The notes beneath the pieces were generated by a model. It worked only from the letters and a program-made list of their open reading frames with translations. It searched no databases and was not told the origin of the DNA. 64,000 nucleotides of DNA from positions 1 to 64,000 of the IMG/VR virus record IMGVR_UViG_3300028840_008160, one strand, 5' to 3'. Every line of letters begins with the position of its first letter. The stretch's first letter is position 1. Positions 1,883 to 41,138 of the stretch are shown here, piece after piece. This stretch comes from a virus. Made by a program: the position numbers and the translations under genes.

Positions 1883-2064
1883 TTTTGACAATAGCTTATG
1901 ATGTAGTACTTGGCATTGATACAAGAGTTTTTAAACTAGTTAAAAATGAGACTATTGAAGTCCTTGAAGAAGTAGATAAATATAGTAGAGTAAAAGTATT
2001 GATACAGCAACAAGAAGTTTTGATTAACAAGCAGATGTTAGACCGAATTGTTAATAGTCATTAA
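1879..2064 (+). CDS. Hypothetical protein, 61 aa
   Basis: The start overlaps the stop of the preceding gene in an ATGA, indicating translational coupling. The protein is short and beta-strand-like (alternating V/I/L), with a KYSRVKVLIQQQEVLIN segment that could be a small SH3-like barrel. Its stop overlaps the stop of the opposing radical SAM gene (TTAA, 2061-2064), so the two transcription units converge here without a spacer. Function is unknown. Confidence 0.65.
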   Translation: MILTIAYDVVLGIDTRVFKLVKNETIEVLEEVDKYSRVKVLIQQQEVLINKQMLDRIVNSH

Positions 2065-2834
2065 ATTCTTTTTGAATATTCGCAATTTCTACAAATAACT
2101 GGTTCATCCTCTGATTTTACACGCCTTAAAAAGTCATTATATTCTATTGTGTTGAATAAGTCGTTGTAATAACGATCAAATATGTTGCCGATTTTGTGCT
2201 TAAGACTAAAGTCGCAACAACATATATAGACATCTCCATTTGGTAGGCATACGTTGTTTACGTATTTGAATGGTAGTTGATGAACTTTTTGACATGTTAT
2301 TGGGCCAGACTTATAATTGACATTGAAATTTAAATTGTTTGCTCGTGAAATAATTGGTAATTTTAGGACTGATAAATCATTAAAGTCATTAGTTGGCTGA
2401 CCGAGTGACACGAAAATAATTTTGGAGTTGTGTTTGCTGATTAATTCTATGTTTTGCAATATGACAGTTGAGTCAGTTATGAAATGATTGTTGTCTGGCA
2501 AATGCACACATATTGTAGCTTTTGACCATATAGATAAATCTATATCTTCTAGTTTTATCGATAATGTAGTATAAATCATACAAGGTCTATTGTCGCGAAT
2601 AGTTTTATCTATCATTTTAAAACTGTCTGGATTTTGTAATGGTTCACAAAAGCCAGCAAAGTCAATTTGCACATGTTTAGGTAAATTGTTTAGTATTTGA
2701 CAAAAGTTAGTAAATGATAAAGTTGGTTGTCCTTTGTACACTTTGATAAGATTGTTTTGTGGACAACAGCTGCAGTGGTTTATGCATGGGATTGCAGTTG
2801 TTATTTCAAAAGTAGGATAATTTGCAAATGTCAT
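2061..2834 (-). CDS. Radical SAM/SPASM-type protein
   Basis: The 257-residue protein has the radical SAM [4Fe-4S] motif CxxxCxxC at C17, C21 and C24 (the last followed by Pro). A GFCEPL segment sits where GGEPL is usual. Its C-terminal part has GDVYICCCDF, a GNI strand and a final C..C pair, the pattern of a SPASM or twitch auxiliary cluster domain. Such proteins usually modify peptides or proteins by radical chemistry using S-adenosylmethionine. It is the last gene of a six-gene minus-strand run and overlaps the upstream gene by ATGA. The substrate is unknown; the preceding small proteins are possible partners by position only. A second SPASM protein, at 28.0 kb, is distinct. Confidence 0.8.
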   Translation of the reverse strand: MTFANYPTFEITTAIPCINHCSCCPQNNLIKVYKGQPTLSFTNFCQILNNLPKHVQIDFAGFCEPLQNPDSFKMIDKTIRDNRPCMIYTTLSIKLEDIDLSIWSKATICVHLPDNNHFITDSTVILQNIELISKHNSKIIFVSLGQPTNDFNDLSVLKLPIISRANNLNFNVNYKSGPITCQKVHQLPFKYVNNVCLPNGDVYICCCDFSLKHKIGNIFDRYYNDLFNTIEYNDFLRRVKSEDEPVICRNCEYSKRI

Positions 2835-3307
2835 AGTATGAATCCATCATACGGTTCTGTTGTTCTAATAAATTCTTCAGTAAATTCTTTTCCTCGCTCT
2901 TGTAGAACTTCTTTAATCATCGAGATATAATAAGATGGTATAATTCCATTTTGTGACGGGTTTATTGTAACAAAGGCAAAAATTCGATCACTCTTACCAA
3001 TTTCTAAGGTTGTCATGACATTTGTTGTAACATTTTTGAAAGCGTAACATTTTCCAACCATTTCTGATTTGCATAAAGGCGCTATATCATCTTTTGATAT
3101 TTTGAAGATGATGCCGTTGATATGCGTTGATATTTGAGATTCAATGCCTAAAAATAGTTTGCCTTCCCAAACTGTGTTCCATGCACGTTTAAAGTAACAT
3201 AATTTAGCTTGATGAAGGTCTTTATTTTTGTAAGTTTTTTTGAGACCTCTGCCATTAATTCCGGCAATAGATGCTAAAGTACAATACCCAAAAATGTAGT
3301 ACGACAT
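2831..3307 (-). CDS. Gamma-glutamylcyclotransferase-like (GGCT/AIG2 fold) protein
   Basis: The N-terminus (YYIFGYCTLAS) matches the nucleotide-like loop YGSL pattern of the gamma-glutamylcyclotransferase fold. A later segment (HINGIIFKISKDD.APL...E..GKCYAF..V) matches the family's core strand-helix-strand. E82 falls at the expected catalytic acid. These enzymes release 5-oxoproline from gamma-glutamyl amines or glutathione. At 158 residues it is close to family length. It lies between a Nudix gene (2 bp upstream) and a radical SAM gene (ATGA overlap), so it belongs to that operon. The family assignment is from motif memory, and the glycine of the substrate loop is replaced, so activity on gamma-glutamyl peptides is uncertain. 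Confidence 0.6.
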   Translation of the reverse strand: MSYYIFGYCTLASIAGINGRGLKKTYKNKDLHQAKLCYFKRAWNTVWEGKLFLGIESQISTHINGIIFKISKDDIAPLCKSEMVGKCYAFKNVTTNVMTTLEIGKSDRIFAFVTINPSQNGIIPSYYISMIKEVLQERGKEFTEEFIRTTEPYDGFIL

Positions 3308-3309
3308 AC

Positions 3310-3852
3310 TTATTTGTTGAGAAGTTTTTGAAGTCGTAAAAACATAACTGAAACTTGTGGATCTTTACTTTCTTCTACATTTGATGTTTCAGCCCAAACG
3401 CATGCAGCTTTCTTTTCTAATTCTGAACCGTCACCTGTAGCTTCGCCACGATCTTTGTCTGTAAGATTTATTGTGTATAGATAGTAAACTGTGTCGGCAG
3501 ATTTTGAAGCAAAACTAGTTCCAAGACTGATTAGTTCATTTTTATCAGCTTTGTAACCACCTTCTTCTTTTAGTTCCATTATAGCAGTGTCTCTAGGGTC
3601 GCCGCCTTCAAATCCACCCGTAATTGAACTAATGTATTGATTTAATCCCCAACAAGGTGTGACTTCATTTCTGAGAAGAAGTTCAATACCAGAAGATGTT
3701 AGTCTGTATGGTAGTAAAGCAATGATTTTGCCTTCGCATCTTGATTCATGCGAGAAAAAATATCCATTAACACCATTTTCGGGATCAATCATTTTTTTGA
3801 GAGCAAGAAATGATTTGTCACCTACTTTTCCTTCGCAGATAGTCTCAATCAT
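3310..3852 (-). CDS. Nudix hydrolase
   Basis: A Nudix box is visible in the middle of the 180-residue protein: TGGFEGGDPRDTAIMELKEE followed by GGY. It has the ELKEEGG core that binds metal and pyrophosphate, but lacks one residue (the first Glu position of GX5E) and has Met in place of the box Arg. Such enzymes cleave nucleoside diphosphates linked to another moiety, ADP-ribose and NADH being common substrates. A strong AGGAGG site precedes the ATG. Given NAD salvage genes and a macrodomain within 10 kb, an ADP-ribose or NAD-type substrate is plausible but not shown. An RNA-cap or mutagenic nucleotide substrate is the main alternative. Confidence 0.8.
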   Translation of the reverse strand: MIETICEGKVGDKSFLALKKMIDPENGVNGYFFSHESRCEGKIIALLPYRLTSSGIELLLRNEVTPCWGLNQYISSITGGFEGGDPRDTAIMELKEEGGYKADKNELISLGTSFASKSADTVYYLYTINLTDKDRGEATGDGSELEKKAACVWAETSNVEESKDPQVSVMFLRLQKLLNK

Positions 3853-3861
3853 TATGTCCTC

Positions 3862-4131
3862 CTAATATGCATCACTAAAGCCGTCTTTGAATAATTGTGT
3901 AAGAATTTTTGCCACTTGTTGTTCGTCTTTTCCGCTAATTGTTATGTTTATTTTTGCGCCTTTGTTAGCAACTAATGTCATGAGATTCATAATACTTCTA
4001 GCATTAACAGACACGCCGGCATTTTTCATTATAACAGTTGACTTGTAGTTACGCAATGTCTCTACTATTAGGGCCGATGGCCTTGCGTGAAGGCCCAGTT
4101 CGTTTGTGATTTTTAGGGTTATTTGTACCAC
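3862..4131 (-). CDS. ptsH: HPr-family phosphocarrier protein
   Basis: This 89-residue protein has the length and motifs of the PTS phosphocarrier HPr. The active-site histidine is H15 in LGLHARPSA, followed by the conserved R17. A Ser at position 46 sits in NARSIMNLMTL, matching the regulatory Ser46 segment of Gram-positive-type HPr. The typical GA.(I)...I.GKDE strand follows. HPr passes phosphate from enzyme I to sugar permeases and in many bacteria regulates catabolism. No PTS enzyme I or II is seen in the window, so it would have to act on host proteins. The start is GTG with GGAG about 8 bases upstream, which places its first 83 bases inside the preceding gene. NPr (nitrogen PTS) is an alternative name. 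Confidence 0.88.
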   Translation of the reverse strand: MVQITLKITNELGLHARPSALIVETLRNYKSTVIMKNAGVSVNARSIMNLMTLVANKGAKINITISGKDEQQVAKILTQLFKDGFSDAY

Positions 4132-4414
4132 TGCGTTTCTCCAGTTTTTTGTATATTTGCATTAGATCATCATCTTGTAAAAAATGATCGCATTGTTCTT
4201 TAATTTTGTGTCGACATTTTTCATGTTTGCAAATTTTACAAACTGATTTGTCCCAATTTCGTCTAAAGTCTTTTGCGAACATTTTTGTCCACGATGTCTC
4301 GTCTTTAGCAATTAAATCAGTTTTAATATGTTTGCTAATAGCGCTGCGTTCTGCTGTGACGAAATTTTTAAAAATAATATCATAAGGAGGAATTTTTCGT
4401 TGGTGTGTTTTCAT
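4049..4414 (-). CDS. Small basic zinc-finger-like protein
   Basis: A strong AAGGAGGAG site precedes the ATG. The 121-residue protein is Lys/Arg rich and has a cysteine/histidine cluster (CKICKHEKCRHK....CDHF, about residues 59-77) that could bind zinc. Its last 28 codons overlap the HPr start in another frame by 83 bases, an unusually long overlap that may couple expression. The family is not recognised, and nucleic-acid binding is only a guess from charge and the zinc-like cluster. Confidence 0.6.
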   Translation of the reverse strand: MKTHQRKIPPYDIIFKNFVTAERSAISKHIKTDLIAKDETSWTKMFAKDFRRNWDKSVCKICKHEKCRHKIKEQCDHFLQDDDLMQIYKKLEKRSGTNNPKNHKRTGPSRKAIGPNSRDIA

Positions 4415-4440
4415 AGTTGCTCCTCCTTAAAGAGAATAGT

Positions 4441-4466
4441 GGCCTCTACTTTATCAAGTAAAGGCC
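4441..4466. other. Hairpin between two minus-strand genes
   Basis: GGCCT-C-TACTT and AAGTA-A-AGGCC form an 11-position stem with one C/A mismatch around a TATC loop. It lies between the 215-residue gene and the next minus-strand gene. On neither strand is it followed by a clear T run, so it may be an attenuator, RNA processing site or mRNA-stabilising hairpin rather than a simple terminator. Confidence 0.45.
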
Positions 4467-4472
4467 AACAAA

Positions 4473-5120
4473 TCAACTGAGTTTTTTAATAACATTAAGT
4501 ATGTCATCTTTAGCGTCTTTAATTTTATCATATCTTGCAACTTCTCGTTTTTCTGGATTGAAAATTGAATAGAAAAAGTCTCGACCATGGACTTGTCTAT
4601 CAATGTACCAATTTATATTATGTGCTGCGTATCGTAAGATTCCATTAATAGTTACAGGTCTTTTCCAGAAAATCTTGTCAGGTATATTTGATGAAAAATT
4701 TATGCCCATATAGTTAAAAATGTCGTCGATTGTATCACATTTTGCTAAATCTATTGATAAGTTAGTAACATCGTCTTTTGTTACAACTTTTTGTGATTGA
4801 TCAATATGTACTAATTCTTTTGGCATAGACTTTTTAGTGACAGTTCGAAACTTTTGTTGACGTTCATGCGCTTCAATACTAGATATCACTTGTTCATACA
4901 CATCAAGAAATTGCTGTACAAAATATTTCTCTTCATCATTATCTGAGTGTTCTATAATACTACGAAGGAAATCAGTCCAGCCTTCATTATTAATAACATT
5001 AATTGTATTGGGTAAGAACACTTTAGCTGAACCGACACGCACTGTTACACCAGAGATCTTTATAAGACCTTTGTTTGCTGCGTCTTGTAACATTTCTCTT
5101 GAACTATTATAGATGGACAT
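4473..5120 (-). CDS. Hypothetical protein, 215 aa
   Basis: First gene of the minus-strand run. The reading frame extends upstream to 5177, but the ATG at 5120 has an AAAAGGA site about 6 bases before it and gives an N-terminus MSIYNSSREML, so this start is preferred. The protein is predicted mixed alpha/beta, with Lys/Asp-rich helices at the C-terminus and no recognised motif. Function is unknown. It is separated from the opposite strand genes by about 245 bp that holds a + strand terminator. Confidence 0.65.
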   Translation of the reverse strand: MSIYNSSREMLQDAANKGLIKISGVTVRVGSAKVFLPNTINVINNEGWTDFLRSIIEHSDNDEEKYFVQQFLDVYEQVISSIEAHERQQKFRTVTKKSMPKELVHIDQSQKVVTKDDVTNLSIDLAKCDTIDDIFNYMGINFSSNIPDKIFWKRPVTINGILRYAAHNINWYIDRQVHGRDFFYSIFNPEKREVARYDKIKDAKDDILNVIKKLS

Positions 5121-5222
5121 AACAATCCTTTTATAGATGTATTCTAATAAGGATATGATCAATGATTTTACATGCATGACAGTGATCCATCTTTGTAATA
5201 TGAATTGATTAATCGTATATGA

Positions 5223-5365: not shown

Positions 5366-5587
5366 ATGGACACATCAGTTGGAAATCTACGAAAAATGTT
5401 AGAGAGTTTGCCAGATGAGGCAGACATTGTGACTGAAGATTGGGATGGTGCTGCTATTAGAAGAATGAATCATAGCACAAATGAGCCCTTAGCACTGGAA
5501 GAATTGCTTATGGTTCATGATGGTAGACTCTATATTGTCAATAAGCAAGCTACTGAAAACGAATGTCATCGATGGCAACGAGGTTGA
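5366..5587 (+). CDS. Hypothetical protein, 73 aa, upstream of pncB
   Basis: The 73-residue acidic protein has the pattern VGNLRKMLESLPDEADIV, a helix then strand often seen at the N-terminus of small phage proteins of unknown role. The ATG has no good ribosome binding site, which lowers confidence in the exact start. The stop lies 2 bases before the preferred start of pncB, so the two are likely co-transcribed and coupled. Confidence 0.55.
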   Translation: MDTSVGNLRKMLESLPDEADIVTEDWDGAAIRRMNHSTNEPLALEELLMVHDGRLYIVNKQATENECHRWQRG

Positions 5588-5589
5588 CT

Positions 5590-6774
5590 ATGCAAGGACC
5601 AATAAGCGCAATCGACAATGATCAGTACAAGTTCTCAATGCAAAATGGTGTTGTGAAGTTGTTTCCTCGCGAAATTGTTCGATACGAGTTTTTTAATCGA
5701 GGCAAACATGAGTTTCCGGATGGATTTGCGAAACTTCTGCGTGAACTAGTAGATATGTATGCTGCTATTACATTTGTCAAAGATGACATCGATTTTTTTA
5801 GAGAAAAAGCTTACTATTTTGATCCTGCATATCATTCGTTTTTACGAGGCTACAGATATGATCCGTCAGAAGTGAAAATCATTCAAGAAGGTTACAATCT
5901 TCAAGTAATTGTGGAGGGCTTATGGCACAAAACAATTCTATGGGAAGTGCCGCTTATGGCATTGATCTGCGAATTGTATTATGAAATGACTAAACAACAA
6001 CCAAAAGACAGAAAAGAACGAGAGCAAATCAACAAAGAGAAAGTTATTGCTCTTACAAAATTGTTAATCAAAGCAGCAGAATTTGGAACAAGACGACGGT
6101 TTTCTTTTATTAATCAAAAAGAGTTTTTAATTGATGCTATAACTTATGGCAATTTTGCTGGACATAAACTTCTTTCTGGAACAAGCAATGTATATTTTGC
6201 ACGTGAACTTGATCTTCTATCAATAGGTACACAAGCTCATGAGTGGTACATGTTTCACGCTGCGAAGTATGGTTTTAGAATGGCTAACTTGCTCGGTATG
6301 GAAAACTGGGTTAAAGTATATAATGGAGATTTGGGAATAGTTCTTCCAGATACATTCACCACTGATGCTTTTCTCAAGTCTTTTAATACAATGTTTGCAA
6401 AGCTGTTCGACGGCAGTAGACAAGATAGTGATTGTCCGTTCGCATACACAGATAAATTTGTCAAACATTATCGTGATTTGAAAATTCCGTCACAACACAA
6501 AACAATTGTTTATTCTGACGGAATAAGCAGTGTTAAAACCGTGAGTGATATCAAGGAATATGCAACAGGAAAAGTGCAAGACGGATATGGTATTGGTACA
6601 TGGTTTACAAACGATGTTGGTCTTAAGCCGATGAATATCGTTATTAAGATGACAGCTGCATTTATAAACGGAGTATGGGTACCTACAATTAAGTTGTCTG
6701 ACGCAGCAACGAAGAATACAGGAGATCAGATTCAAATTGGAATTGCTAAACATGAATTAGGGATAAATGTATGA
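5590..6774 (+). CDS. pncB: Nicotinate phosphoribosyltransferase
   Basis: The 394-residue protein matches the length of bacterial PncB (about 400) rather than the longer NAMPT/NadV. Conserved segments are DNDQYKFSMQ (9-18), ILWEVPLMALICE, FGTRRRFS, SGTSN, GTQAHEWY with the phosphorylated histidine at H217, KTIVYSD, YGIGT and NIVIK. The enzyme joins nicotinate to PRPP to make nicotinate mononucleotide, usually driven by ATP. The frame begins earlier (5563), but the ATG at 5590 follows CGAGG and comes just after the upstream stop. With nadE next and pncA 4 kb downstream it forms most of a Preiss-Handler NAD salvage route. Confidence 0.93.
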   Translation: MQGPISAIDNDQYKFSMQNGVVKLFPREIVRYEFFNRGKHEFPDGFAKLLRELVDMYAAITFVKDDIDFFREKAYYFDPAYHSFLRGYRYDPSEVKIIQEGYNLQVIVEGLWHKTILWEVPLMALICELYYEMTKQQPKDRKEREQINKEKVIALTKLLIKAAEFGTRRRFSFINQKEFLIDAITYGNFAGHKLLSGTSNVYFARELDLLSIGTQAHEWYMFHAAKYGFRMANLLGMENWVKVYNGDLGIVLPDTFTTDAFLKSFNTMFAKLFDGSRQDSDCPFAYTDKFVKHYRDLKIPSQHKTIVYSDGISSVKTVSDIKEYATGKVQDGYGIGTWFTNDVGLKPMNIVIKMTAAFINGVWVPTIKLSDAATKNTGDQIQIGIAKHELGINV

Positions 6775-6919
6775 TAGCTTTCATCAGTTTAGTTTTTTTG
6801 TTGATATTATTGACAGACTTGTCAATTACGATAAAGAACATGTAAGAATTAGAATAATAATAGTGGAACAGAATAGGAAAAAAATGTATGGACAACTTGG
6901 TGTATACGACAAAGATTAG
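6767..6919 (+). CDS. Candidate small protein, 50 aa, between pncB and nadE
   Basis: An ATG at 6767 follows AGGG and opens a 50-codon frame ending at TAG 6919. It overlaps pncB by 8 bases and nadE by 32. The predicted peptide (begins MYDSFHQFSFFVDIIDRLVN) has balanced composition with helix-forming and charged residues. A rival reading starts at 6771, overlaps the pncB stop in ATGA and gives a 24-residue hydrophobic peptide. Either or neither may be translated; no family is recognised. Confidence 0.35.
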   Translation: MYDSFHQFSFFVDIIDRLVNYDKEHVRIRIIIVEQNRKKMYGQLGVYDKD

Positions 6920-7796
6920 TGATAGTGCTTATGCTTATGCAGTAAAGAAAATGCAAAACATTTTTCGTCAGTATTTAATTGATAACAATCGAAAAGCTGT
7001 TGTTATTGGAATGTCGGGTGGTATTGATAGTGCTCTAACTGCAGCTTTGGCTGGGCAAGTATGTGCAGAATTAGAAATACCGCTTGTTGGTAGAAGTCTA
7101 CCAATAATGACGAATAAACCTGATGAAGTAGAACGTGCCGCAAGAGCTGGTAAAATATTTTGTTCTAATTTTGGTGAAAAAGATTTAACTAGTGCATATA
7201 CTGCTTTACACGAATTGATGGATGACATTGATGCTAGCAGTGATGAGCAATTAACTTTGACAGTAAAGATTCGAGAAGGTAATATTAAAGCGCGAACAAG
7301 AATGATATATCTTTATGATCTTGCTAGAAAAAATGATGGATTGGTTTTGTCAACTGATAACTATACAGAATTAATGCTCGGTTTCTGGACACTTCATGGT
7401 GATGTAGGCGATTTTGGATTACTTCAGAATATTTGGAAAACAGAAGTATATGAAATGGCAAGATTTTTATGTCGCGCAGGATTAGATGATGATGCTATTC
7501 AAATACTAAAAGACACTATTACTGCTGTTCCGACAGATGGTTTAGGAATTACAAATAGTGATTTAGATCAGCTTGGAGCAGGCAGCTATGAAGAGGTTGA
7601 CAAAATTTTGATGACATATTTATCTGGTTCAAGAAAAGAATATATGAATCATCCAGTTATCATAAGACATTTGACATCTGTTTATAAGAGAGCGAATCCT
7701 GTTAATATAGCTAGAAAAGATATTCTTCCTTCTGTTTATAAGAGAGCGAATCCTGTTAATATAGCTAGAAAAGATATTCTTCCTTTAACAGCATGA
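6888..7796 (+). CDS. nadE: NAD synthetase, ammonia-dependent type
   Basis: The 302-residue protein has the ATP pyrophosphatase P-loop GMSGGIDSAL (41-50) and the motifs EGNIKARTRM, LSTDNYTE, LGF.T..GD and a C-terminal KR..P tail, all typical of NadE. It converts nicotinate adenine dinucleotide to NAD using ATP and ammonia; no glutaminase domain is present. It is somewhat longer than the bacterial enzyme (about 275) because the C-terminal 18 residues with the KR..P signature are exactly duplicated. It follows pncB and precedes a PP2C gene by 6 bases. The missing step between them, NadD, is not in the window. Confidence 0.93.
   Translation: MDNLVYTTKISDSAYAYAVKKMQNIFRQYLIDNNRKAVVIGMSGGIDSALTAALAGQVCAELEIPLVGRSLPIMTNKPDEVERAARAGKIFCSNFGEKDLTSAYTALHELMDDIDASSDEQLTLTVKIREGNIKARTRMIYLYDLARKNDGLVLSTDNYTELMLGFWTLHGDVGDFGLLQNIWKTEVYEMARFLCRAGLDDDAIQILKDTITAVPTDGLGITNSDLDQLGAGSYEEVDKILMTYLSGSRKEYMNHPVIIRHLTSVYKRANPVNIARKDILPSVYKRANPVNIARKDILPLTA
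7677..7784 (+). repeat. Perfect 54 bp tandem duplication in nadE
   Basis: Bases 7677-7730 and 7731-7784 are identical. The repeat keeps frame and duplicates the residues SVYKRANPVNIARKDILP at the C-terminus of NadE. Lack of any difference suggests a recent duplication, or an assembly artefact. Confidence 0.95.
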
Positions 7797-7802
7797 GATT
7801 TT

Positions 7803-8552
7803 ATGTGGATAAAGAATCAAGCAATCATCGTCGGAACTGATCACATTCATACTAAGACTAATCGTCAAGATTATGTATTAACTTATAGTGATAGAGATAT
7901 TACATGCGGCGTTGTGTGTGACGGTTGCAGTTCTGGACAATTTTCTGAATTTGGTGCATGTTTTATTGCAAATTTAGTAATAAAATTATTGAAAACTAAT
8001 CGAGAAGCAACTGCTGAATTGTTGACAGTTGAAATGATGATTGAAATAAAACGTGCTATAGACAGCGTTCTTTTTTTACTTCATGATTATTCAACAACAT
8101 TGCCTATAGATATAGCACATTTTATTGAACATCATTTTTTATCGACATTTGTTTTTTGCATGATAGCTGGTGATAGAATTATCATAGGTCGTTGCGGTGA
8201 TGGCTTGACGATTGTAAATGGTATAGCTGACATTGCTGATCAGAAGAATGCGCCGCATTATATTGCGTATAACAATGTGCCGAAATTTTTGTTATCAACG
8301 TCAGATTTGAATGGCATTGAAATACAGGTATTAAATGAAGTAGAGGTGAACAGCATTGTTATTGGTACAGATGGATTGGTGCCGCTTCTAGAAGCTAATG
8401 AAGGTCATGAATTGTTTGGAACTGAGAAGAGACAGTTACAACGGAAATTTAATGTATGGCAAAATAAAAGACAGTTATTTCATGATGATGTTTCATGCGT
8501 TGTTTTTGAAAAGGTGAAGAATGAAGATAGTATTATGCGGGCAAACGATTGA
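7803..8552 (+). CDS. PP2C-type serine/threonine phosphatase
   Basis: The 249-residue protein has the ordered metal-binding motifs of PP2C enzymes: RQDY (D23), VVCDGCSSG (D40-G41), GRCGDG, IGTDGL (D190) and DDVSC (228-232). It would remove phosphate from serine or threonine residues. It overlaps the kinase gene by 32 bases, a classic pairing of a kinase and its counteracting phosphatase. With a vWA gene downstream the arrangement resembles TerY-P modules described from comparative genomics. Whether it acts on host or phage proteins is not visible. Confidence 0.85.
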   Translation: MWIKNQAIIVGTDHIHTKTNRQDYVLTYSDRDITCGVVCDGCSSGQFSEFGACFIANLVIKLLKTNREATAELLTVEMMIEIKRAIDSVLFLLHDYSTTLPIDIAHFIEHHFLSTFVFCMIAGDRIIIGRCGDGLTIVNGIADIADQKNAPHYIAYNNVPKFLLSTSDLNGIEIQVLNEVEVNSIVIGTDGLVPLLEANEGHELFGTEKRQLQRKFNVWQNKRQLFHDDVSCVVFEKVKNEDSIMRAND

Positions 8553-10383
8553 TTTAGATCAGAGCAAATTACTTGGCAGTGGTGGTGAGGCTAATGTTAT
8601 TAGACATGGCAAATATGCAATAAAAGTGTATCATAAACCGACCGTTGACAGAATTCAGAAATTGACTGATTTTTTTAAGAAGGGATTTAATTTACCAAAT
8701 AATGTTTTCAGTCCTATCGAGCCTGTGACAAGCACTAAAGGTAAGATGATAGGTTTTGCCATGCAGGCAGCAACAAAAAAGTGTCCTGAGTTTATTCATC
8801 TTTACGATACTACGTTTCGTAGCACACAACGTATTAGTTCGGTGGATATTGTTAAGTTATTTATTCACACTAAACAAACGCTGGATGCTATACATCAACT
8901 TGGATTGGTAGTAGGTGATTTTAATGATTTAAATCAACTTTTTGACGATACATTTTCTTCTATCTTTATAGATGTAGATTCTTATCAGTTTGATAATTAT
9001 CCATGTATAGTCGGGACAGATTCATATATCGATCCAAATTTGTATGGATTTGATTTGACTAAGAAGCCGTCATTTTCAAAACAAACTGATTGGTACTCGT
9101 TTGCTGTTTTACTATTTAGAAGTTTATTGTTTGTGCATCCTTATGGAGGATTTTACAAAAAATATAAGACGCTATTTGCACGAGCTCAAAATAATGTATG
9201 GGTATTTGATAGTAATGTTATTAAGCCAAAAATAGGATTACATCCGGAAACATTGAGCGACGAGTTGTTGAGTTATTTTGATGCAATATTCACGAAAGGT
9301 CAACGATTAGATTTACCATTACATCTTTTGCAGCAGCAAACATTTAACGAATGTAAAGTTTGCGGCACGCAATTTAGTCATACACGAGGTAAATGCCCAC
9401 AATGTCAGAAAGTCGCCCCGTTTAAGACTGTTGATGTTAGTAGTATTTTAACACATAAAGTTATTGGCAATGAGAAGTGTGAGACTACAACTGTATTCGA
9501 AGTTAACGGCACAATTTTGTTTGTCAAAGTTGTTGCTGGTATAATAGTAATAGTATCGTATGATGACAGTTCAACAGTGCTTGATACAATTGATACGAGT
9601 GGCTATAAGCAACGTGTAGTGTTGTGGTCTGGGCACAGAAAAGATGTAAAGTTTGATTTTATGTTTCCATCATGTTTGGTTGTTGGGTATGATAAAACAT
9701 TAATATTACTACATATTGGTGATAGTGACGCTAAAGAAATTGTTAAAACAACAACAATGACATTTTTAGATGAACCTATTTTTGGATGTAGTGAAAGTCA
9801 TTTGTATCGTTTGACACCAACGATGATAATGTCATCGCAATTACACCGTTCAGGTCAGTTAATAGAAAAAGGATTAGTATCAGCTGTAGCAAATCAAACG
9901 CAGTTTTTTGTGGGACAAAATCAATTTGGTTTGGGATTCTATAGAGTTTTCAGTGATTATAAATTCTTTACGGTGTCTGACATACAAGGTAGACATGAGG
10001 TAGAATTAGATCAATTAAATGGACAGATGATTGATATTGATGTCAAAGTATCTGTTAATAGTTTGATTTTATTGCGAAAGAGTTTGAATAAAGGTCGGAC
10101 ATATTCACATTGGCATATGATAAATGATAAAGGTCAGGTTGTTGAATCTAAGTCAGAAGAGTCAATTAATTCAGAATTGCTTAGAAACATTCATGGAAAG
10201 GAGCTCGCAGGGTCTAATATCATTCATTCTACAGATGCAGGTATTGCCGTTGAGAAGCATGGTAATGTATCGTTGAAGGTATCAACAGCAGAGATTGTTA
10301 ATACAGGTCATAGATTAATGTTATACAAACACGGACTGTTAGCAGTTTCTGAAAAGAAAATCGTGTATCTTGTTTTGAAGTAG
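8521..10383 (+). CDS. Protein kinase with zinc ribbon and C-terminal beta-rich domain
   Basis: The kinase domain spans about residues 15-265. It has a glycine loop LGSGGEANV (18-26), the ATP lysine K35, a catalytic loop GDFNDLN (D133, N138), a metal aspartate in IDVDSYQF in place of DFG, and TDWYSFAVLLF. A zinc ribbon follows (C278, C281, C292, C295), then about 320 residues of repeated beta strands that look like a propeller. Total 620 residues. The start has AAGG seven bases upstream and lies inside the PP2C gene. This domain order, with an adjoining PP2C gene, fits the TerY-P kinases. Substrates are unknown; a role in rewiring host signalling or defence is inference. Confidence 0.82.
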   Translation: MKIVLCGQTIDLDQSKLLGSGGEANVIRHGKYAIKVYHKPTVDRIQKLTDFFKKGFNLPNNVFSPIEPVTSTKGKMIGFAMQAATKKCPEFIHLYDTTFRSTQRISSVDIVKLFIHTKQTLDAIHQLGLVVGDFNDLNQLFDDTFSSIFIDVDSYQFDNYPCIVGTDSYIDPNLYGFDLTKKPSFSKQTDWYSFAVLLFRSLLFVHPYGGFYKKYKTLFARAQNNVWVFDSNVIKPKIGLHPETLSDELLSYFDAIFTKGQRLDLPLHLLQQQTFNECKVCGTQFSHTRGKCPQCQKVAPFKTVDVSSILTHKVIGNEKCETTTVFEVNGTILFVKVVAGIIVIVSYDDSSTVLDTIDTSGYKQRVVLWSGHRKDVKFDFMFPSCLVVGYDKTLILLHIGDSDAKEIVKTTTMTFLDEPIFGCSESHLYRLTPTMIMSSQLHRSGQLIEKGLVSAVANQTQFFVGQNQFGLGFYRVFSDYKFFTVSDIQGRHEVELDQLNGQMIDIDVKVSVNSLILLRKSLNKGRTYSHWHMINDKGQVVESKSEESINSELLRNIHGKELAGSNIIHSTDAGIAVEKHGNVSLKVSTAEIVNTGHRLMLYKHGLLAVSEKKIVYLVLK

Positions 10384-10730: not shown

Positions 10731-11693
10731 ATGAATAAACCTACGTTTTATGATCCGGCTAAAATAGGTACATTGTACCTTCCACGGCTAGCAGACATAG
10801 AGGCAGAAGCTGCGAAAGTAAGTATTCCGGCTTCTGCCTCTGATCGTCCCGGTGCTAAAGTTGCACTGATGCTTATCGATTTTCAAATTGATTTTTGCCA
10901 TAAGACAGGGTCGTTGTATGTCAATGGTGCAGAAAAAGACATAGAGAATGCTGTCAACTTCATTTTAGCAAATCTTGAGCGGCTTACGAACATTTTTGCG
11001 TCTTTGGATTCACACCTTCTTTTCCAGATTTTCTATCGTACATGGTGGCAATTACAGAACGGCGAGAAGCCTGATTTGTTTACAGAAATTTACAAAGAAG
11101 GTGGTTCTGGCCCAATGGCGAAGAATATTGACAGCGGTGATGTTCGACCGTTGCTTGACCCTGTTAACAGTATCAGCTATACTGAAAAGTTGATGCTTCA
11201 GGCAAATAAGCCTCTTTGCATTTGGCCATATCATACAATGCTTGGTACTCCGGGACAGGCGATGGATCCTGCATTGTACGAAGTTTTGGCTTATCATGCG
11301 TTTGTCAGGAAGACACAGTTGAATTTCTTACAGAAGGGACAAATACCTCAAACTGAAATGTATGGTATTCTCAGCCCTGAGGTAAAGATGCCGAATCATC
11401 CACAAGGCGGATTCAACACTGATTTTCTTAACATTCTGATGAAGCATGATAAAGTTATTATTGCCGGCGAGGCAAAGAGTCATTGTGTGTTGGCTTCTAT
11501 CATGCAGATTCATGAGTTTTTCAGCAAAACAGACCCTGATGTTTTGAAGAAAGTATTCATTTTGGAAGATTGTATGAGTTCTGTGCCTCATCCAGCGATT
11601 GATTTTGAAGCTATTGCTGTTGCTGAATTTGACAAATTCAGAAATTCTGGCATTAACATCGTCAAAAGTACCGATTTGGATCTTACAGCATAA
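10731..11693 (+). CDS. pncA: Nicotinamidase (isochorismatase-like hydrolase)
   Basis: The 320-residue protein carries the cysteine hydrolase set of nicotinamidases: catalytic D50 in LIDFQIDFC, metal ligands D93 and H95 in SLDSH, H168 in WPYHTM.GTPG, the lysine in RKTQ (K194) and nucleophile C252 in GEAKSHCV. It would convert nicotinamide to nicotinate, the substrate of PncB. It is longer than PncA of E. coli (about 213), with an N-terminal 40-residue extension and inserts. A GGAGG site precedes the ATG. Its position near pncB and nadE supports nicotinamide as substrate, but other isochorismatase-family amides cannot be excluded. Confidence 0.82.
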   Translation: MNKPTFYDPAKIGTLYLPRLADIEAEAAKVSIPASASDRPGAKVALMLIDFQIDFCHKTGSLYVNGAEKDIENAVNFILANLERLTNIFASLDSHLLFQIFYRTWWQLQNGEKPDLFTEIYKEGGSGPMAKNIDSGDVRPLLDPVNSISYTEKLMLQANKPLCIWPYHTMLGTPGQAMDPALYEVLAYHAFVRKTQLNFLQKGQIPQTEMYGILSPEVKMPNHPQGGFNTDFLNILMKHDKVIIAGEAKSHCVLASIMQIHEFFSKTDPDVLKKVFILEDCMSSVPHPAIDFEAIAVAEFDKFRNSGINIVKSTDLDLTA

Positions 11694-13492: not shown

Positions 13493-14176
13493 ATGAAACA
13501 GTTATTTAAAGCTGATTTTGTTCGTGATTCTTTTTTCACATATACAACCGGCATGCGTGATAAAAATGCTGTTCAACAAATTATGCTGGCGTATAGATTA
13601 GCTAAATATGCTCAAATGAATAAGTTTGGTGGTGATAATATTGATAGACCGAAAATTGCTGTGAAGATATTTTTGTTTTTGGTAAAACAATTTAGAAGGT
13701 CTTATACAAACATTAAGCTTGAAATTGATGTGACAGCTATATTGTTAAGTTATGTCATTCGCAATTCATACATGCTAACACAAGATGATGTTATAAAGAT
13801 ATTTGGACAAAACGTTGATAAAAAAGTTGCAGAATTAATTGGCTTTGATCGAATTGTAGATTCAAGAGCAAAAATTACAATTGCTAAACAATCTAAGTTT
13901 AAAGATGAGATTTCAAAGCAGACGATGATTATGCGTGCAGCTATAACAATGGCAGAATTAAGAACATTAACGTTAACTAAAGCAAGAGCATTTCCTGCAA
14001 AAGTATATGAACGCTATTTGCCGGTTTTTAACGCTTATCCAGATGTTTGTCATGTAGTAGCTAATGAGTTAAAAATATGGTTGGTTAAAAAATTGAAAGA
14101 AGCACAATCAAGCACAGATTATAATTTAACATCAGGAAATATGTTTTCATATTTTACTATTTTGCAAGATTTATAA
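13493..14176 (+). CDS. Degenerate RelA/SpoT-like HD-fold protein (tentative)
   Basis: The helical pattern AYRLAKYAQ..KFGG...RPKIAVKIFLFLV then ILLSYVIRNSYMLTQDDVIKIFG..VDKKVAELIGF, and later a TMIMRAAITMAELRTL helix, follows the order of the ppGpp hydrolase domain of SpoT-type proteins. The metal-binding H and HD residues are absent (RPK for HPx, LLSY for LLHD), so hydrolysis is unlikely. A binding or decoy role toward (p)ppGpp or a similar nucleotide is possible. The match is from pattern reading only and could be a different helical family. It meets the opposing gene tail-to-tail with a 6 base overlap. Confidence 0.4.
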   Translation: MKQLFKADFVRDSFFTYTTGMRDKNAVQQIMLAYRLAKYAQMNKFGGDNIDRPKIAVKIFLFLVKQFRRSYTNIKLEIDVTAILLSYVIRNSYMLTQDDVIKIFGQNVDKKVAELIGFDRIVDSRAKITIAKQSKFKDEISKQTMIMRAAITMAELRTLTLTKARAFPAKVYERYLPVFNAYPDVCHVVANELKIWLVKKLKEAQSSTDYNLTSGNMFSYFTILQDL

Positions 14177-14995
14177 CTTTATATTTTGCTCATTTTTGAT
14201 AGCATCAATTAGTTTATTATATTTCTTCCGGTCAACAGACCACGAATTGTCTTTTTTCTGTCGAAGAAAGTTTTCATAGTAACTACGAGCATATCTGTTT
14301 GATGTTTTTTGCTCTAAATTGTTTAATTTTTGTTCTTCTGCAGACGTGTCTTCACCGCGTTTCTTTTTAAGCAAGTATTTAAGTGTTAGTTTAGCTAATT
14401 TCAAATTTTTCTTAATCGATTTTAGATTTTTCTTACGTATTTCAAAGTAAGCCCACGCTTTTTCTCCTGCATCAACGCGTGTAGTCATTGTTTCTGAATT
14501 AAACCAAGGTTGACGTTCTGCCCACTCTCTAAATAGTTTGCTATATTTTTCATATGATGCAGGATCCCAATTAGGATAATCGTCGTCTTCTTCAAATGGT
14601 CTCGAATGCCAAGTACCAAGATCTCTTATGCCAAACTCAACACCAATCGGCTTATTTTTGTTGTCGGTCTGAATTTCGGCTTCGTCTTTTTGTTGATGAA
14701 ACGAGTAATCATGTGGATCTTTTGGAAAGCGTAATGAATTGAGAGAATTTTTGATAGCATCTGCAGGAAATTCTTGTGATTGTTTTTGTGTTTGACGCTT
14801 TTGTGATAATTCTGATTTCAGTTCTTTTTTATCTGATGGCATAATCTGTTGTGCTGGTTGCCCTGGTTGCGCTGTTATTCTTCGTTTACTTTTTGGATGA
14901 CGTTGTAAATACGCTTTTTGTTCTTCGTATGTCAAATTATCCCACTTACGAGACTCTTTAATAAATTCAACTTGTATTTGAGCTAGATGTTTCAT
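14171..14995 (-). CDS. Protein with shared N-terminal WDxL-EEQ-YL-HP motif
   Basis: The 274-residue protein is charged and helical, rich in Lys and Glu, with no catalytic motif. Residues 18-45 (WDNLTYEEQKAYLQRHPKSK then RRITAQPG) closely resemble N-terminal segments in two other proteins of this window, at 19.2 kb and in the sigma-like factor at 41.1 kb. The very start MKHLAQIQ is also shared with the 19.2 kb protein. This suggests a transferable N-terminal module, for example a packaging or targeting signal. It is the only minus-strand gene here and shares a 65 bp divergent upstream region with the patatin gene. Confidence 0.65.
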   Translation of the reverse strand: MKHLAQIQVEFIKESRKWDNLTYEEQKAYLQRHPKSKRRITAQPGQPAQQIMPSDKKELKSELSQKRQTQKQSQEFPADAIKNSLNSLRFPKDPHDYSFHQQKDEAEIQTDNKNKPIGVEFGIRDLGTWHSRPFEEDDDYPNWDPASYEKYSKLFREWAERQPWFNSETMTTRVDAGEKAWAYFEIRKKNLKSIKKNLKLAKLTLKYLLKKKRGEDTSAEEQKLNNLEQKTSNRYARSYYENFLRQKKDNSWSVDRKKYNKLIDAIKNEQNIKL

Positions 14996-32770: not shown

Positions 32771-35700
32771 ATGGCTGATGATGACAATGACATTGTAAAT
32801 GAAGATGAAGACGAAGATATTGTATGTGAAAACGAAGTTGTAAGTGAAGAAGGACAATTTGATGTCAAATCGCACGAAGTGTTGCCGAAGATGTATTTGG
32901 CTTATGCGCTAAGTGCAATTAAAGACAGATCATTACCTGATATACGTGACGGACTAAAACCTGTCGCGAGACGTATTTTGTTCGGAATGCATGAAATGAG
33001 TTTGACTCATTCTAAGCCAACTAGAAAAAGCGCAAGAGTCGTTGGTGAAGTCATGGGCAAATATCATCCTCACGGAGATGGGTGTTGGAGAGGCTCTGCC
33101 AACGTTCTTGAACTCAATGGTAAAATTCATCGTTTAAAAGACCTTGTAGGCAAGCAGATTTGGGTATTGGCTCATGATACAGAGAACAACAAGCCGGTCC
33201 CAGCAATTGCTCATTCATTTAGAATTACAAAGTTTGTCGATGAATTGTATCGTGTGACATTTTGGAATGGTGAAAAGATCGAATTGACAGACAATCATGA
33301 ATTGGAAAAATTATCAGGTGAATGGTCCAGGACTGATGCTTTGAATGTTGGTGATATAATCACTAATGGAATTATCACTAACAACGAATATCCTAAATTT
33401 AGAAGTTCAAATGAACGTATGTCAATAGGAAAGAAACTTCATCATATTGTTGGTGAACATATTCATGGTGAAGCTGAAATTTATCATCATAAAGACGAGA
33501 ATACGAAGAATAATTTGCCTGACAATATTGAACCGGTGACAAAGATCGCTCATGAAAAGCTTCATAAGAATTATGAAAAAGGTCTACGAAAAGGTAATGA
33601 AACTATGTTTCATGGTATCGATGAATTTCGTGAAGCTACAAGAAAGAAAAACTCTGAGATTATTAAAGCAGTGAATCAAAAACATTATCTTTTTAAAGCA
33701 ATTAAGATTCTTAAGATGATGATTGAAGATGATGTAGAACTTACAGAAGAAGTTTATAATAACTATCGAGTAAAAGTATATAATGGTACAACTCTAGAAC
33801 GACTTAAGATAAATGGCCATACTTTTGATGAGGTTGCTGGATATGCCAAGTCAAAAGAGAAACTTAGACTAATTGATACTTCATTAGCAAAAGGTCACAT
33901 TGAAAGTCTTAAAGTTGAAGAAAATAATGCTGATGAACATGTTTCAAGACAAAGTAATGATTCAAGAAAAAAAGGTCATTTACTCTATACGTCTTCAATA
34001 GTAGTTAGTGCATGCCTTGAAAATTATGGTTTAAATTTTAATATCAAAGACTATGATGATATTAGATGCGATTTGTGTGAAACAGATGACAATAATTTTT
34101 ATCCAAAATTTGAAACATTGACAAAATGGTTTGGGATAACTACAATCAATCAATTATTGGATTTAATGTCTCAACGAAATTTAATGATAATTAAGAAGAT
34201 TGAGACATTCAATGTTGATCATGAGCCTGTATATGATTTTACTGTAGATAAATATGAAAATATGTATATGCCTGTTGGCACGAATGAAAGAAACGAAACG
34301 AAACTAATTGTTGCTCATAATTCAATCTATGGTGCAGCGGTGAGGTTGGCACAACCTTTTACTACACGTTATCCGCTTATCATTGGTCAAGGAAATTTTG
34401 GGTCAGTTGAAGATAAACCGGCTGCAATGAGATACACAGAAATGAAAATGTCAGCAATATCAGATATGGTTGTTGCTGATATTGATAAAGCGACAGTTGA
34501 TTTTATGCCCAATTTTGATGGCACACTTAATGAACCCAAAGTTTTGCCGACAAGACTACCGTTGTTTTTATTGAATGGTTCTGTTGGTATTGCTGTTGGT
34601 ATGGCAACTTCTGCGCCGCCTCATAATTTGACGGAAATTATCGATGCTATGTTGACTTTCATTGATAATGAAGACGTCTCAATCTCTGAATTGATGCAAT
34701 ATTTAAAAGGACCTGATTTTCCATCTGGTGCATATATGTTTGACAACGGAATTCGTCAAATATATGAAACAGGTCGAGGGTCTGTAACTATAAGAGCGAA
34801 AGCTGAAATTGTTGATAACGGTAAAAGACAGAACATCATCATTACTGAATTGCCGTATCAATTAGACAAGTCTAAGTTAATCACTAGAATTGCTGATCTT
34901 TATAAGAAGAAAGAGAAGATTGAAGGTATTGATGGCATATCAGATATCAGAGATGAAAGTGATAAGCATGGTACGAGACTAGTAGTTGAATTACGACGCG
35001 GTGTTAGAGCCAAGGCTGTTTTAAACACATTGTTTCGGCGTACTGAATTACAAACAAAACAATCTTTTTTGATGCGAGCGTTGATCGACAATGTTCCAAA
35101 ACTTGTAACGCTTAAAGAAATTTTTGGTCATTTTGTCAATCATAGAAAAGATGTTATCACGAGACGAACTGAGTTTGAATTGAATCAAGCAGAAAAGAAA
35201 GCTCATATATTGCGCGGATATTTAGTAGTTTTTGATAATTTGGATGCAATTCTTGAAGATGTCAAAACTTCTAAGTCAACTGAGATGACATATAAACGTT
35301 TGCAGAAATATAAATTATCTGATGAACAAATCAAGGCAATTTTGGATTTACGCGTGCAACGTCTCGCTCAATTTGAGCGCGAAGCTATTGTGACTGAACA
35401 TAGTGAACTAATGACTAAGATTCACGGATTGAAGCAGTTACTAGATTCGGAAGTTTTAGTATTAGAAAAAATCAAAGAGGAATTGGCAGAAATTAGACAA
35501 CAATTTGGTGATGCTCGTAAAACTAAAATTATCAAAACCAGATCTAGATCAAACTCTGATGATGACGATGATAATAAAGAAGAAAGTTTAGATACAAGTG
35601 ATGAAACAATTGATGAGATTGAGGAGATTCAGGAGGAAGACGTTGTTGTTACTGTAACTCATAATGGATTGGTTAAACGGACGCCGGTGTCAGAATATCG

Positions 35701-36613
35701 TGTGCAGAACGTACGTGGTAAGGGTTTGATTGGAGTTGATGTTAAAGAAGAAGATTATGTTGAAAAAGTATTTCAATTATCAACGCATGATTATACATTA
35801 GTTTTTACTAATAAGGGTCATTGTTATAAAATGAATGTATTTGAGATACCGTCATTAGGCAGAACAGCTGCAGGAAGTTCAATACTCAATGTTCTTAACC
35901 TTAATGAAGATGAAATTGTTGCTAGTGTAGTACCAATTACTAATTTGCAGGACAAAATGTTTTTGATGGTTACAAGAAAAGGTCAAGTCAAAAAATTGAA
36001 AGCTGAAAAGTTGCAACGCCCACGAGCTAAAGGTACAAAAGTTGTTGGACTTGATGACAACGACGTTCTTATTGATGTTAAACTTATAGATCAGCCACAT
36101 TTGGATGCTTTGTTAGTGACGAGAAAAGGTATTTCAATACGATTTCCTGAAAGTGCTGTAAGAGCATCCGGTAAAAGTGGTTCAGGCGTTAGGGCAATCA
36201 AATTAGCTGATGATGATTGTATTGTTTCGGTAAATATGATATCTGAAGCTGACAATGAATGTTTTGTGATGCTAGTTACTGAACGAGGTTATTCTAAAAA
36301 GACTATATTACGCAAGTTTAGAACTCAACGTCGAGGTGGTCGCGGGATCATTTGTATGGATGCTAACACAACTGTTGGCAAAATTGTTTCGGCTGGTATT
36401 GTGTTAGACGAGAAAGAACAATTCATTGTTATGACAAGTCAAGGCATGCTTATACGATTGAAATCGGCTCAAATAAGAACATTAGGACGAAATACTCAAG
36501 GTAGTCGAATACAAAAACTAAAAATGACTGATTCAGTAGCTGCAGTTGCATATTTAGGAATTGTTGAAGAAAACGAATCTGACTCTGAACAATCTGAAGT
36601 CGAGGATGAATAA
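32771..36613 (+). CDS. gyrA: DNA gyrase subunit A with in-frame intein
   Basis: The 1280-residue precursor has an acidic N-terminus, a winged-helix segment (ALSAIKDRSLPDIRDGLKP...KYHPHGD), then an intein of 413 residues (105-517). The A-subunit extein resumes at SIYGAAVRLAQPF. The catalytic tyrosine is Y555 (Y142 after splicing) in AAMRYTE. The C-terminal domain has the gyrase box QRRGGRG (1186-1192), a marker of negative-supercoiling GyrA rather than ParC. The spliced product would be 867 residues, the usual GyrA length. Together with GyrB it could set phage DNA supercoiling and decatenate products. Its stop overlaps topA (TAATG). Confidence 0.93.
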   Translation: MADDDNDIVNEDEDEDIVCENEVVSEEGQFDVKSHEVLPKMYLAYALSAIKDRSLPDIRDGLKPVARRILFGMHEMSLTHSKPTRKSARVVGEVMGKYHPHGDGCWRGSANVLELNGKIHRLKDLVGKQIWVLAHDTENNKPVPAIAHSFRITKFVDELYRVTFWNGEKIELTDNHELEKLSGEWSRTDALNVGDIITNGIITNNEYPKFRSSNERMSIGKKLHHIVGEHIHGEAEIYHHKDENTKNNLPDNIEPVTKIAHEKLHKNYEKGLRKGNETMFHGIDEFREATRKKNSEIIKAVNQKHYLFKAIKILKMMIEDDVELTEEVYNNYRVKVYNGTTLERLKINGHTFDEVAGYAKSKEKLRLIDTSLAKGHIESLKVEENNADEHVSRQSNDSRKKGHLLYTSSIVVSACLENYGLNFNIKDYDDIRCDLCETDDNNFYPKFETLTKWFGITTINQLLDLMSQRNLMIIKKIETFNVDHEPVYDFTVDKYENMYMPVGTNERNETKLIVAHNSIYGAAVRLAQPFTTRYPLIIGQGNFGSVEDKPAAMRYTEMKMSAISDMVVADIDKATVDFMPNFDGTLNEPKVLPTRLPLFLLNGSVGIAVGMATSAPPHNLTEIIDAMLTFIDNEDVSISELMQYLKGPDFPSGAYMFDNGIRQIYETGRGSVTIRAKAEIVDNGKRQNIIITELPYQLDKSKLITRIADLYKKKEKIEGIDGISDIRDESDKHGTRLVVELRRGVRAKAVLNTLFRRTELQTKQSFLMRALIDNVPKLVTLKEIFGHFVNHRKDVITRRTEFELNQAEKKAHILRGYLVVFDNLDAILEDVKTSKSTEMTYKRLQKYKLSDEQIKAILDLRVQRLAQFEREAIVTEHSELMTKIHGLKQLLDSEVLVLEKIKEELAEIRQQFGDARKTKIIKTRSRSNSDDDDDNKEESLDTSDETIDEIEEIQEEDVVVTVTHNGLVKRTPVSEYRVQNVRGKGLIGVDVKEEDYVEKVFQLSTHDYTLVFTNKGHCYKMNVFEIPSLGRTAAGSSILNVLNLNEDEIVASVVPITNLQDKMFLMVTRKGQVKKLKAEKLQRPRAKGTKVVGLDDNDVLIDVKLIDQPHLDALLVTRKGISIRFPESAVRASGKSGSGVRAIKLADDDCIVSVNMISEADNECFVMLVTERGYSKKTILRKFRTQRRGGRGIICMDANTTVGKIVSAGIVLDEKEQFIVMTSQGMLIRLKSAQIRTLGRNTQGSRIQKLKMTDSVAAVAYLGIVEENESDSEQSEVEDE
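33083..34321 (+). mobile_element. Intein with HNH endonuclease domain in gyrA
   Basis: The element starts with Cys105 (block A: CWRGSANVLEL) directly after HPHGDG and ends with AHN517, followed by Ser518 of the extein. These are the residues needed for standard splicing. Within it, EIYHHKDENTKNNLPDN...EKLH (about 234-265) forms an HNH homing endonuclease motif, so it is not a LAGLIDADG intein. The target lies in the conserved GyrA segment around HPHGDS, just upstream of the active site. Removal rebuilds an uninterrupted GyrA. Homing activity is inference. Confidence 0.88.
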
Positions 36614-40733: not shown

Positions 40734-41138
40734 ATGCCTACGTATGATTTTATTTGTAATGAATGCGAACAAGAATATGAAGAAAATCGACCTGTTGGTG
40801 ATTATGATTCAAAATGTCCAGTTTGCAACAGCACAAATGTTAAAAAATTAATTTCTGCACCAAATGTTATACTTAGTGGTTCGACGCCGGATTCGATTAT
40901 TGGGCGAGATGCTGAGCAACGATGGGCACAATACACTGAAAGAAAAAAACAACGAGATAAAAACAATTTTGGTAATGCATCAAGTAAGGAAGTAGAAATT
41001 AAAAATCAACAACGAATTGGTCGACTTGTAGATAGACAACATAAAGCTTATGATGTTTTAGACAAAGCAAAGAAAAAAGCAGGTGTGACTAAACGAGAGG
41101 AAATAAGTTATTTGTTGAAAGGGCAAAACAATGTATAA
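40734..41138 (+). CDS. FmdB-like zinc-ribbon protein
   Basis: The 134-residue protein has a zinc ribbon (C8, C11, C28, C31) and KKLISAPNVILSG, as in FmdB-type proteins. The remaining 90 residues are a charged helix. AAAGG precedes the ATG. It overlaps the sigma-like gene by 8 bases. It is a distant relative of the 30.3 kb protein, sharing only the ribbon. Confidence 0.7.
   Translation: MPTYDFICNECEQEYEENRPVGDYDSKCPVCNSTNVKKLISAPNVILSGSTPDSIIGRDAEQRWAQYTERKKQRDKNNFGNASSKEVEIKNQQRIGRLVDRQHKAYDVLDKAKKKAGVTKREEISYLLKGQNNV

Follow-up and report, generated by a model that had tools for sequence, protein, structure and literature searches.

An HPr gene in a large phage genome

The window, the whole 64,000-nucleotide stretch of DNA that was analysed, belongs to a 329.8-kb virus contig and carries on its minus strand a gene for a phosphocarrier of the HPr family (Table 1). 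Terminase, capsid and NAD-salvage genes were detected inside the window by profiles, and other frames look, on reading, like those of a gyrase, a topoisomerase I and DnaJ-like proteins. Its major capsid protein relates the phage to Bacillus phage G, with 47% identity; the capsid protein of an uncultured 485-kb phage is 51% identical. With terminase and major capsid genes on the same virus record as HPr, the first-pass annotation was right to place the gene in a phage.

Coding in the record lies almost wholly on one strand (~291 kb plus and 13 kb minus), and HPr belongs to one of the few minus-strand runs, at 2061-5177. Genes of this run either overlap or are separated by a few bases, save for a 58-nt gap between 4473-5177 and 4049-4414, which contains a terminator-like hairpin. 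Because the genes overlap or nearly adjoin, HPr is likely co-transcribed with its downstream genes. Near the weak Nudix match of this run, the window also contains an NAD salvage set at 5563-7796 and 10731-11693, comprising nicotinate phosphoribosyltransferase, NAD synthase and, by reading, a nicotinamidase-like gene. A PP2C-type phosphatase gene followed by a gene for a kinase-like protein (weak match) occupies 7803-10383.

Table 1. Features of the HPr locus in the window and HPr genes on other viral contigs
Feature	Positions	Strand	Remarks
SPASM/radical-SAM-like gene	2061-2834	minus	PF13186, 6e-8; 4-nt overlap with the next gene
Gene in the same run	2831-3307	minus	weak match to phrog_38298 (unknown function)
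Weak Nudix-hydrolase match	3310-3852	minus	9 nt downstream of HPr; PF00293 below cut-off; phrog_1185, 3.6e-5
HPr-family phosphocarrier gene	3862-4131	minus	89 aa, GTG start, stop included; PF00381, TIGR01003, AlphaFold, Foldseek
Ser46 codon	3994-3996	minus	codon count from GTG at 4131
Arg17 codon	4081-4083	minus	codon count from GTG at 4131
His15 codon	4087-4089	minus	codon count from GTG at 4131
Shine-Dalgarno-like GGAG	4139-4142	minus	7 nt before GTG; plus strand ctcc, read directly
Upstream gene, function not assigned	4049-4414	minus	overlaps HPr start by 83 nt; Cys-rich (CKxCKxxxCR...C); kept beside HPr in G014
Gene, function not assigned	4473-5177	minus	kept beside HPr in G014; 36% in tblastn, 43% of aligned columns
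HPr group on L064, L066, L068, L153			near PhoH-like ATPase, phrog_170 (tested in L064, L066)
HPr on L065			near PhoH and terminase
HPr on L070			near DNA polymerase and ThyX
HPr on L156 (72-kb contig)	5782-6063		beside sigma-factor gene; viral nature less sure

Several other features of the record were observed. More than 50 tRNA genes are located at ~144.9-175 kb (stretches L006 and L007), and their predicted anticodons include TTA and CTA, possible ochre and amber suppressors; TAA and TAG serve as stops in 145 and 45 of the 309 frames, respectively. At least 11 otherwise different phage proteins share a mostly N-terminal stretch, W-x-x-L-(S/T)-x-x-E-Q-x-x-Y-L-x-x-H-P-x-S-K-R-x-(I/L)-T, encoded at 14171-14995 and 41131-42402 of the window and at 223477, 246217, 266533, 271965, 272381, 300450, 304910, 315507 and 317560 of the record. 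It was found in a 416-kb relative too, and has the look of a shared tag for targeting or virion packaging.

The phage protein is a complete HPr with the conserved phosphorylation sites

Profile searches detected the window protein with PF00381 at E=1e-24 (86.8 bits; cut-off 23) and with TIGR01003 at 92.2 bits (cut-off 47.9) over model positions 1-82 of 82, and all 33 PDB sequences that matched it were of HPr, NPr or Crh type. The cut-offs of the narrower equivalogs were missed, both for NPr (NF008146, 61.1 against 119 bits) and for specific HPr types such as that of E. coli (NF010352, 64.7 against 110; NF008104, 45 against 153). Since the family cut-offs were exceeded and the equivalogs missed, the protein counts as an HPr but does not closely copy any familiar one. 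Its frame stands alone, not as part of an HPr-containing fusion such as FruB or DhaM, and no family of the PHROGs library matched it.

In HPr, enzyme I phosphorylates His15, and Ser46 is the HPr-kinase site. Residue counting returned exactly the His15, Arg17 and Ser46 that had been claimed from the sequence. His15 and Arg17 lie within the GLHARP loop, as in members of the family, and both are invariant in the HPr alignment, His15 in all 31 sequences. Ser46, kept in the window HPr, is Ser in 100% of the cellular comparison set. Across all viral and cellular HPrs compared, positions 13-18 are identical, and so is Ser46 except in one viral contig (L156). The window HPr has Arg45 (Lys in 97% of cellular sequences), Asn49 (mostly Gly) and Val54 (mostly Ala), and because this makes the surface around Ser46 slightly unusual, recognition by HprK or EII may be altered.

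An AlphaFold model built with the 31-sequence alignment (mean pLDDT 94.5) showed the canonical beta-alpha-beta-beta-alpha-beta-alpha order of an open-faced sandwich. The best PDB matches in Foldseek were Thermoanaerobacter tengcongensis HPr (TM 0.91-0.93, rmsd 1.0-1.2). The full-length 89-aa frame, scores well over the PF00381 and TIGR01003 cut-offs and superposition on HPr structures at ~1 Å all bear out the earlier description of the protein as complete.

We compared the phage protein with known HPr-type proteins. It shares length, fold (TM about 0.92, rmsd about 1.1), His15, Arg17 and Ser46 with HPr (PtsH) such as that of T. tengcongensis (3le1), to which it is 36% identical, but unlike cellular PtsH it comes from a phage, one in whose record enzyme I was not detected. 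NPr (PtsO) of the nitrogen-type PTS has the same fold and His site and also works in a regulatory relay without sugar permeases; the phage HPr scored under the NCBIfam NPr cut-off, with 61 against 119 bits. Crh shares the HPr-like fold and a sequence match but lacks a phosphorylatable His15, whereas the phage protein has His15.

Searches for PTS partners in the phage record were negative for the families tested

No match to enzyme I (PF02896), HPr kinase (PF07475), the fructose/PtsN-type EIIA (PF00359) or the mannose-type EIIA (PF03610) was detected in the whole 329.8-kb record. The PF07475 result is weak by itself because the model gave no match in B. subtilis in a control; a custom profile, made from 38 sequences gathered using an HPr-kinase seed, likewise found no match in the record. 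Neither did profiles made from cellular neighbours of HPr (EI, HprK, EIIA-Ntr, EIIA-Man, mannose-type EIIC and EIID). The first-pass annotation had noted no PTS partner and advised a search elsewhere in the phage; for the families tested, with neither glucose-type EIIA nor further EIIB/EIIC families among them, the absence holds record-wide. Since no partner of these families was detected in the record, any phosphate donor for the phage HPr must be the host's. No EI, EIIA-Ntr/Fru or EIIA-Man was found on the other HPr-bearing viral contigs.

The HPr neighbourhoods of the nearest cellular relatives (n=10) contained enzyme I beside HPr in most cases, HPr kinase in one, and a PtsN-like or mannose-type EIIA in some; a host of this kind would therefore supply the partners. 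Most of these HPrs belong to lineages other than those of the classical sugar-PTS models.

The HPr cassette is conserved in a related phage

Capsid similarity identified a 73-kb relative, IMGVR_UViG_3300035659_001663 (G014), whose capsid is 89% identical and which has an HPr gene in the equivalent position. Overall identity between the two HPrs is 45%, but residues 13-24, including His15, Arg17 and the GLHARPS loop, are identical and Arg45-Ser46 is shared; dS between the two genes is saturated. The two genes upstream of HPr have homologs in G014 (36% and 33%, tblastn), and past this pair both phages have the PP2C and kinase-like genes on the other strand and then a structural block, in order. 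The Nudix-like gene has no homolog on the G014 contig, whose end is nearby. Since G014 shares HPr, its three residues and the two upstream neighbours, the cassette is, as judged from this comparison, an old, retained part of the phage lineage that predates the split between the two phages. No HPr was found in larger relatives of 416, 437 and 504 kb, and HPr is therefore not essential to phages of this kind.

Other differences were seen in G014. Nicotinate phosphoribosyltransferase and NAD synthase are missing there, with an OGG-like DNA glycosylase in their place, and the nicotinamidase-like gene is kept (69%). The gyrase A frame of the window (32771-36613, 1280 aa), which has an apparent intein-like insert, aligns in separate pieces in G014.

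HPr genes on other viral contigs

A close-relative scan of IMG/VR with the window HPr as single query returned nothing; other viral HPrs were found with an alignment of the window and G014 pair and with short DNA patterns. The pattern scans located HPr on about seven more viral contigs, in about four further groups. Because they relied on short conserved patterns, both this contig count and an apparent preference for Ser19 are biased. As in the window, these HPrs lie among phage genes, but their neighbours differ (PhoH, terminase, DNA polymerase or sigma factor; Table 1). All those tested match PF00381, and the GLHARP loop is present in all. In L156, Val replaces Ser46, and this HPr is, on its sequence, a natural variant that cannot be phosphorylated at position 46. 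Pairs from L064, L068 and L153 had dN of 0.26-0.29 and dS of 1.4-2.3, giving dN/dS of about 0.13-0.18 at high dS, a ratio that points to purifying selection in this group. Most matches in the phage collection fell in records that lack annotation or in large ones of bacterial origin, and these were left out of the phage HPr count. Also excluded were L067, a FruB-like host frame beside prophage genes, and L155, a pattern match without an HPr.

Phylogeny of the phage HPr

The HPr tree, from an alignment of 89 columns, was weakly resolved. The window and G014 HPrs were sisters (support 100/74 and 97/82). Parsimony required five changes between cellular and viral states; a single viral clade was not rejected (p-AU 0.14). 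No cellular HPr retrieved was closer than about 44% identity to the window HPr, the best coming from Omnitrophota, Mcinerneyibacteriota, Fibrobacterota, Elusimicrobiota and similar groups. By tree path, the nearest HPrs include Chlamydiota, but this grouping, at 78/22, is not really supported. Environmental Chlamydiota HPrs (L089 and L094), about 41% identical, share Arg45 (NARSIM) and the ALIV stretch with the phage HPr, and Arg45 led us to consider a chlamydial origin or host, for which the tree gave too little support. The phylogenetic comparison suggested in the first-pass annotation, run against cellular HPrs, thus united the two phage proteins but, with a weakly resolved tree and no cellular HPr above ~44%, yielded no close cellular relative.

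Proposed role of the phage HPr in infection

HPr receives phosphate on His15 from enzyme I and on Ser46 from HPr kinase; it donates phosphate to EIIA proteins and also binds regulators. We consider it somewhat probable that the phage HPr is a working phosphocarrier, one that would tap host enzyme I and, where present, host HPr kinase. Upon infection, the phage would make its own, otherwise orthodox HPr, whose His15 would accept phosphate from host enzyme I and whose Ser46 would be phosphorylated by host HPr kinase/phosphorylase, if the host has one. The added protein would shift the ratio of free, His-phosphorylated and Ser-phosphorylated HPr in a small signalling pool to the phage's favour, and the shifted ratio would be sensed by host EIIA proteins, regulators and metabolic enzymes, these being the presumed partners, with an equally presumed direction of effect, as the protein could feed, drain or jam the relay.

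The interception of host phosphate flow claimed in the earlier annotation is consistent with the completeness of the protein, the retained residues, the lack of a phage partner of the tested families and the conservation of the gene in G014. Its link to sugar uptake fared less well: given the nearest cellular lineages and their HPr neighbourhoods, a regulatory function independent of sugar uptake appears as plausible. A PTS relay can be incomplete, lacking sugar permeases, and still function in regulation, as Brucella illustrates (PMC2937029).

The phage HPr might instead be mainly a decoy that does not carry phosphate but binds host targets of HPr stoichiometrically, for instance an anti-sigma factor such as Rsd, glycogen phosphorylase, HPr kinase or regulators of the CcpA type. 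The HPr fold is a known regulatory ligand, since solved HPr-target complexes were among the structural matches, namely cellular HPr with Rsd (4xwj), glycogen phosphorylase (9s8k, 9s8b), HprK/P (1kkl), CcpA (2fep) and a fructose regulator (7x7h), and the departure of the surface around Ser46 from the cellular consensus would also suit a binder. A pure binder, however, need not keep His15 and Arg17 amid drift to 45% identity, although that loop also lies in binding surfaces. The retention of both residues favours phosphate transfer over pure binding, and we regard binding as the main activity as rather unlikely.

A phage-encoded phosphosignalling unit, in which HPr would work either with the products of 4049-4414 and 4473-5177 or with the nearby PP2C phosphatase and kinase-like protein, strikes us as quite unlikely. 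Both phages retain all three genes of the cassette, with the PP2C and kinase-like genes following on the other strand, but neither sequence nor domains link the neighbours to PTS proteins, the neighbours of HPr differ in other phage groups, and the terminator-like hairpin separates 4473-5177 from the HPr genes. A host ptsH captured recently without a role, or a mis-assembled contig, is highly improbable. HPr is common in bacteria, and some matches in the viral collection are host genes at prophage edges (L067); this HPr, however, lies inside phage sequence, has a syntenic homolog in another phage record, groups with that homolog at 97-100% bootstrap and is no more than about 44% identical to any cellular HPr retrieved.

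Significance of a phage-encoded HPr

Full-text searches of open-access articles returned no description of a phage-encoded HPr; a report elsewhere is possible. A large survey of jumbo phages mentions neither HPr nor PTS (PMC13037316), and the fructose HPr gene of the host is reported to be expressed less when a Yersinia phage infects (PMC7354516). Phage HPr appears to have been overlooked so far, since no PHROGs family matched it and no open-access report was found. We tentatively propose, as a possibility short of an expectation, that phages have repeatedly used a lone HPr to take over the host PEP-dependent phosphorelay, having gained it several times (at least five changes on the tree, though a single viral origin was not rejected), and that some versions, such as L156 with Val for Ser46, have escaped control by HPr kinase.

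HPr ties cellular energy status (PEP) to the uptake of sugars, to carbon and nitrogen control and to several enzymes. With its own HPr, a single small gene, a phage could reset the link between PEP and metabolism during infection. Metabolic genes of phages usually encode enzymes; the phage HPr, unlike these, would be a hub regulator.
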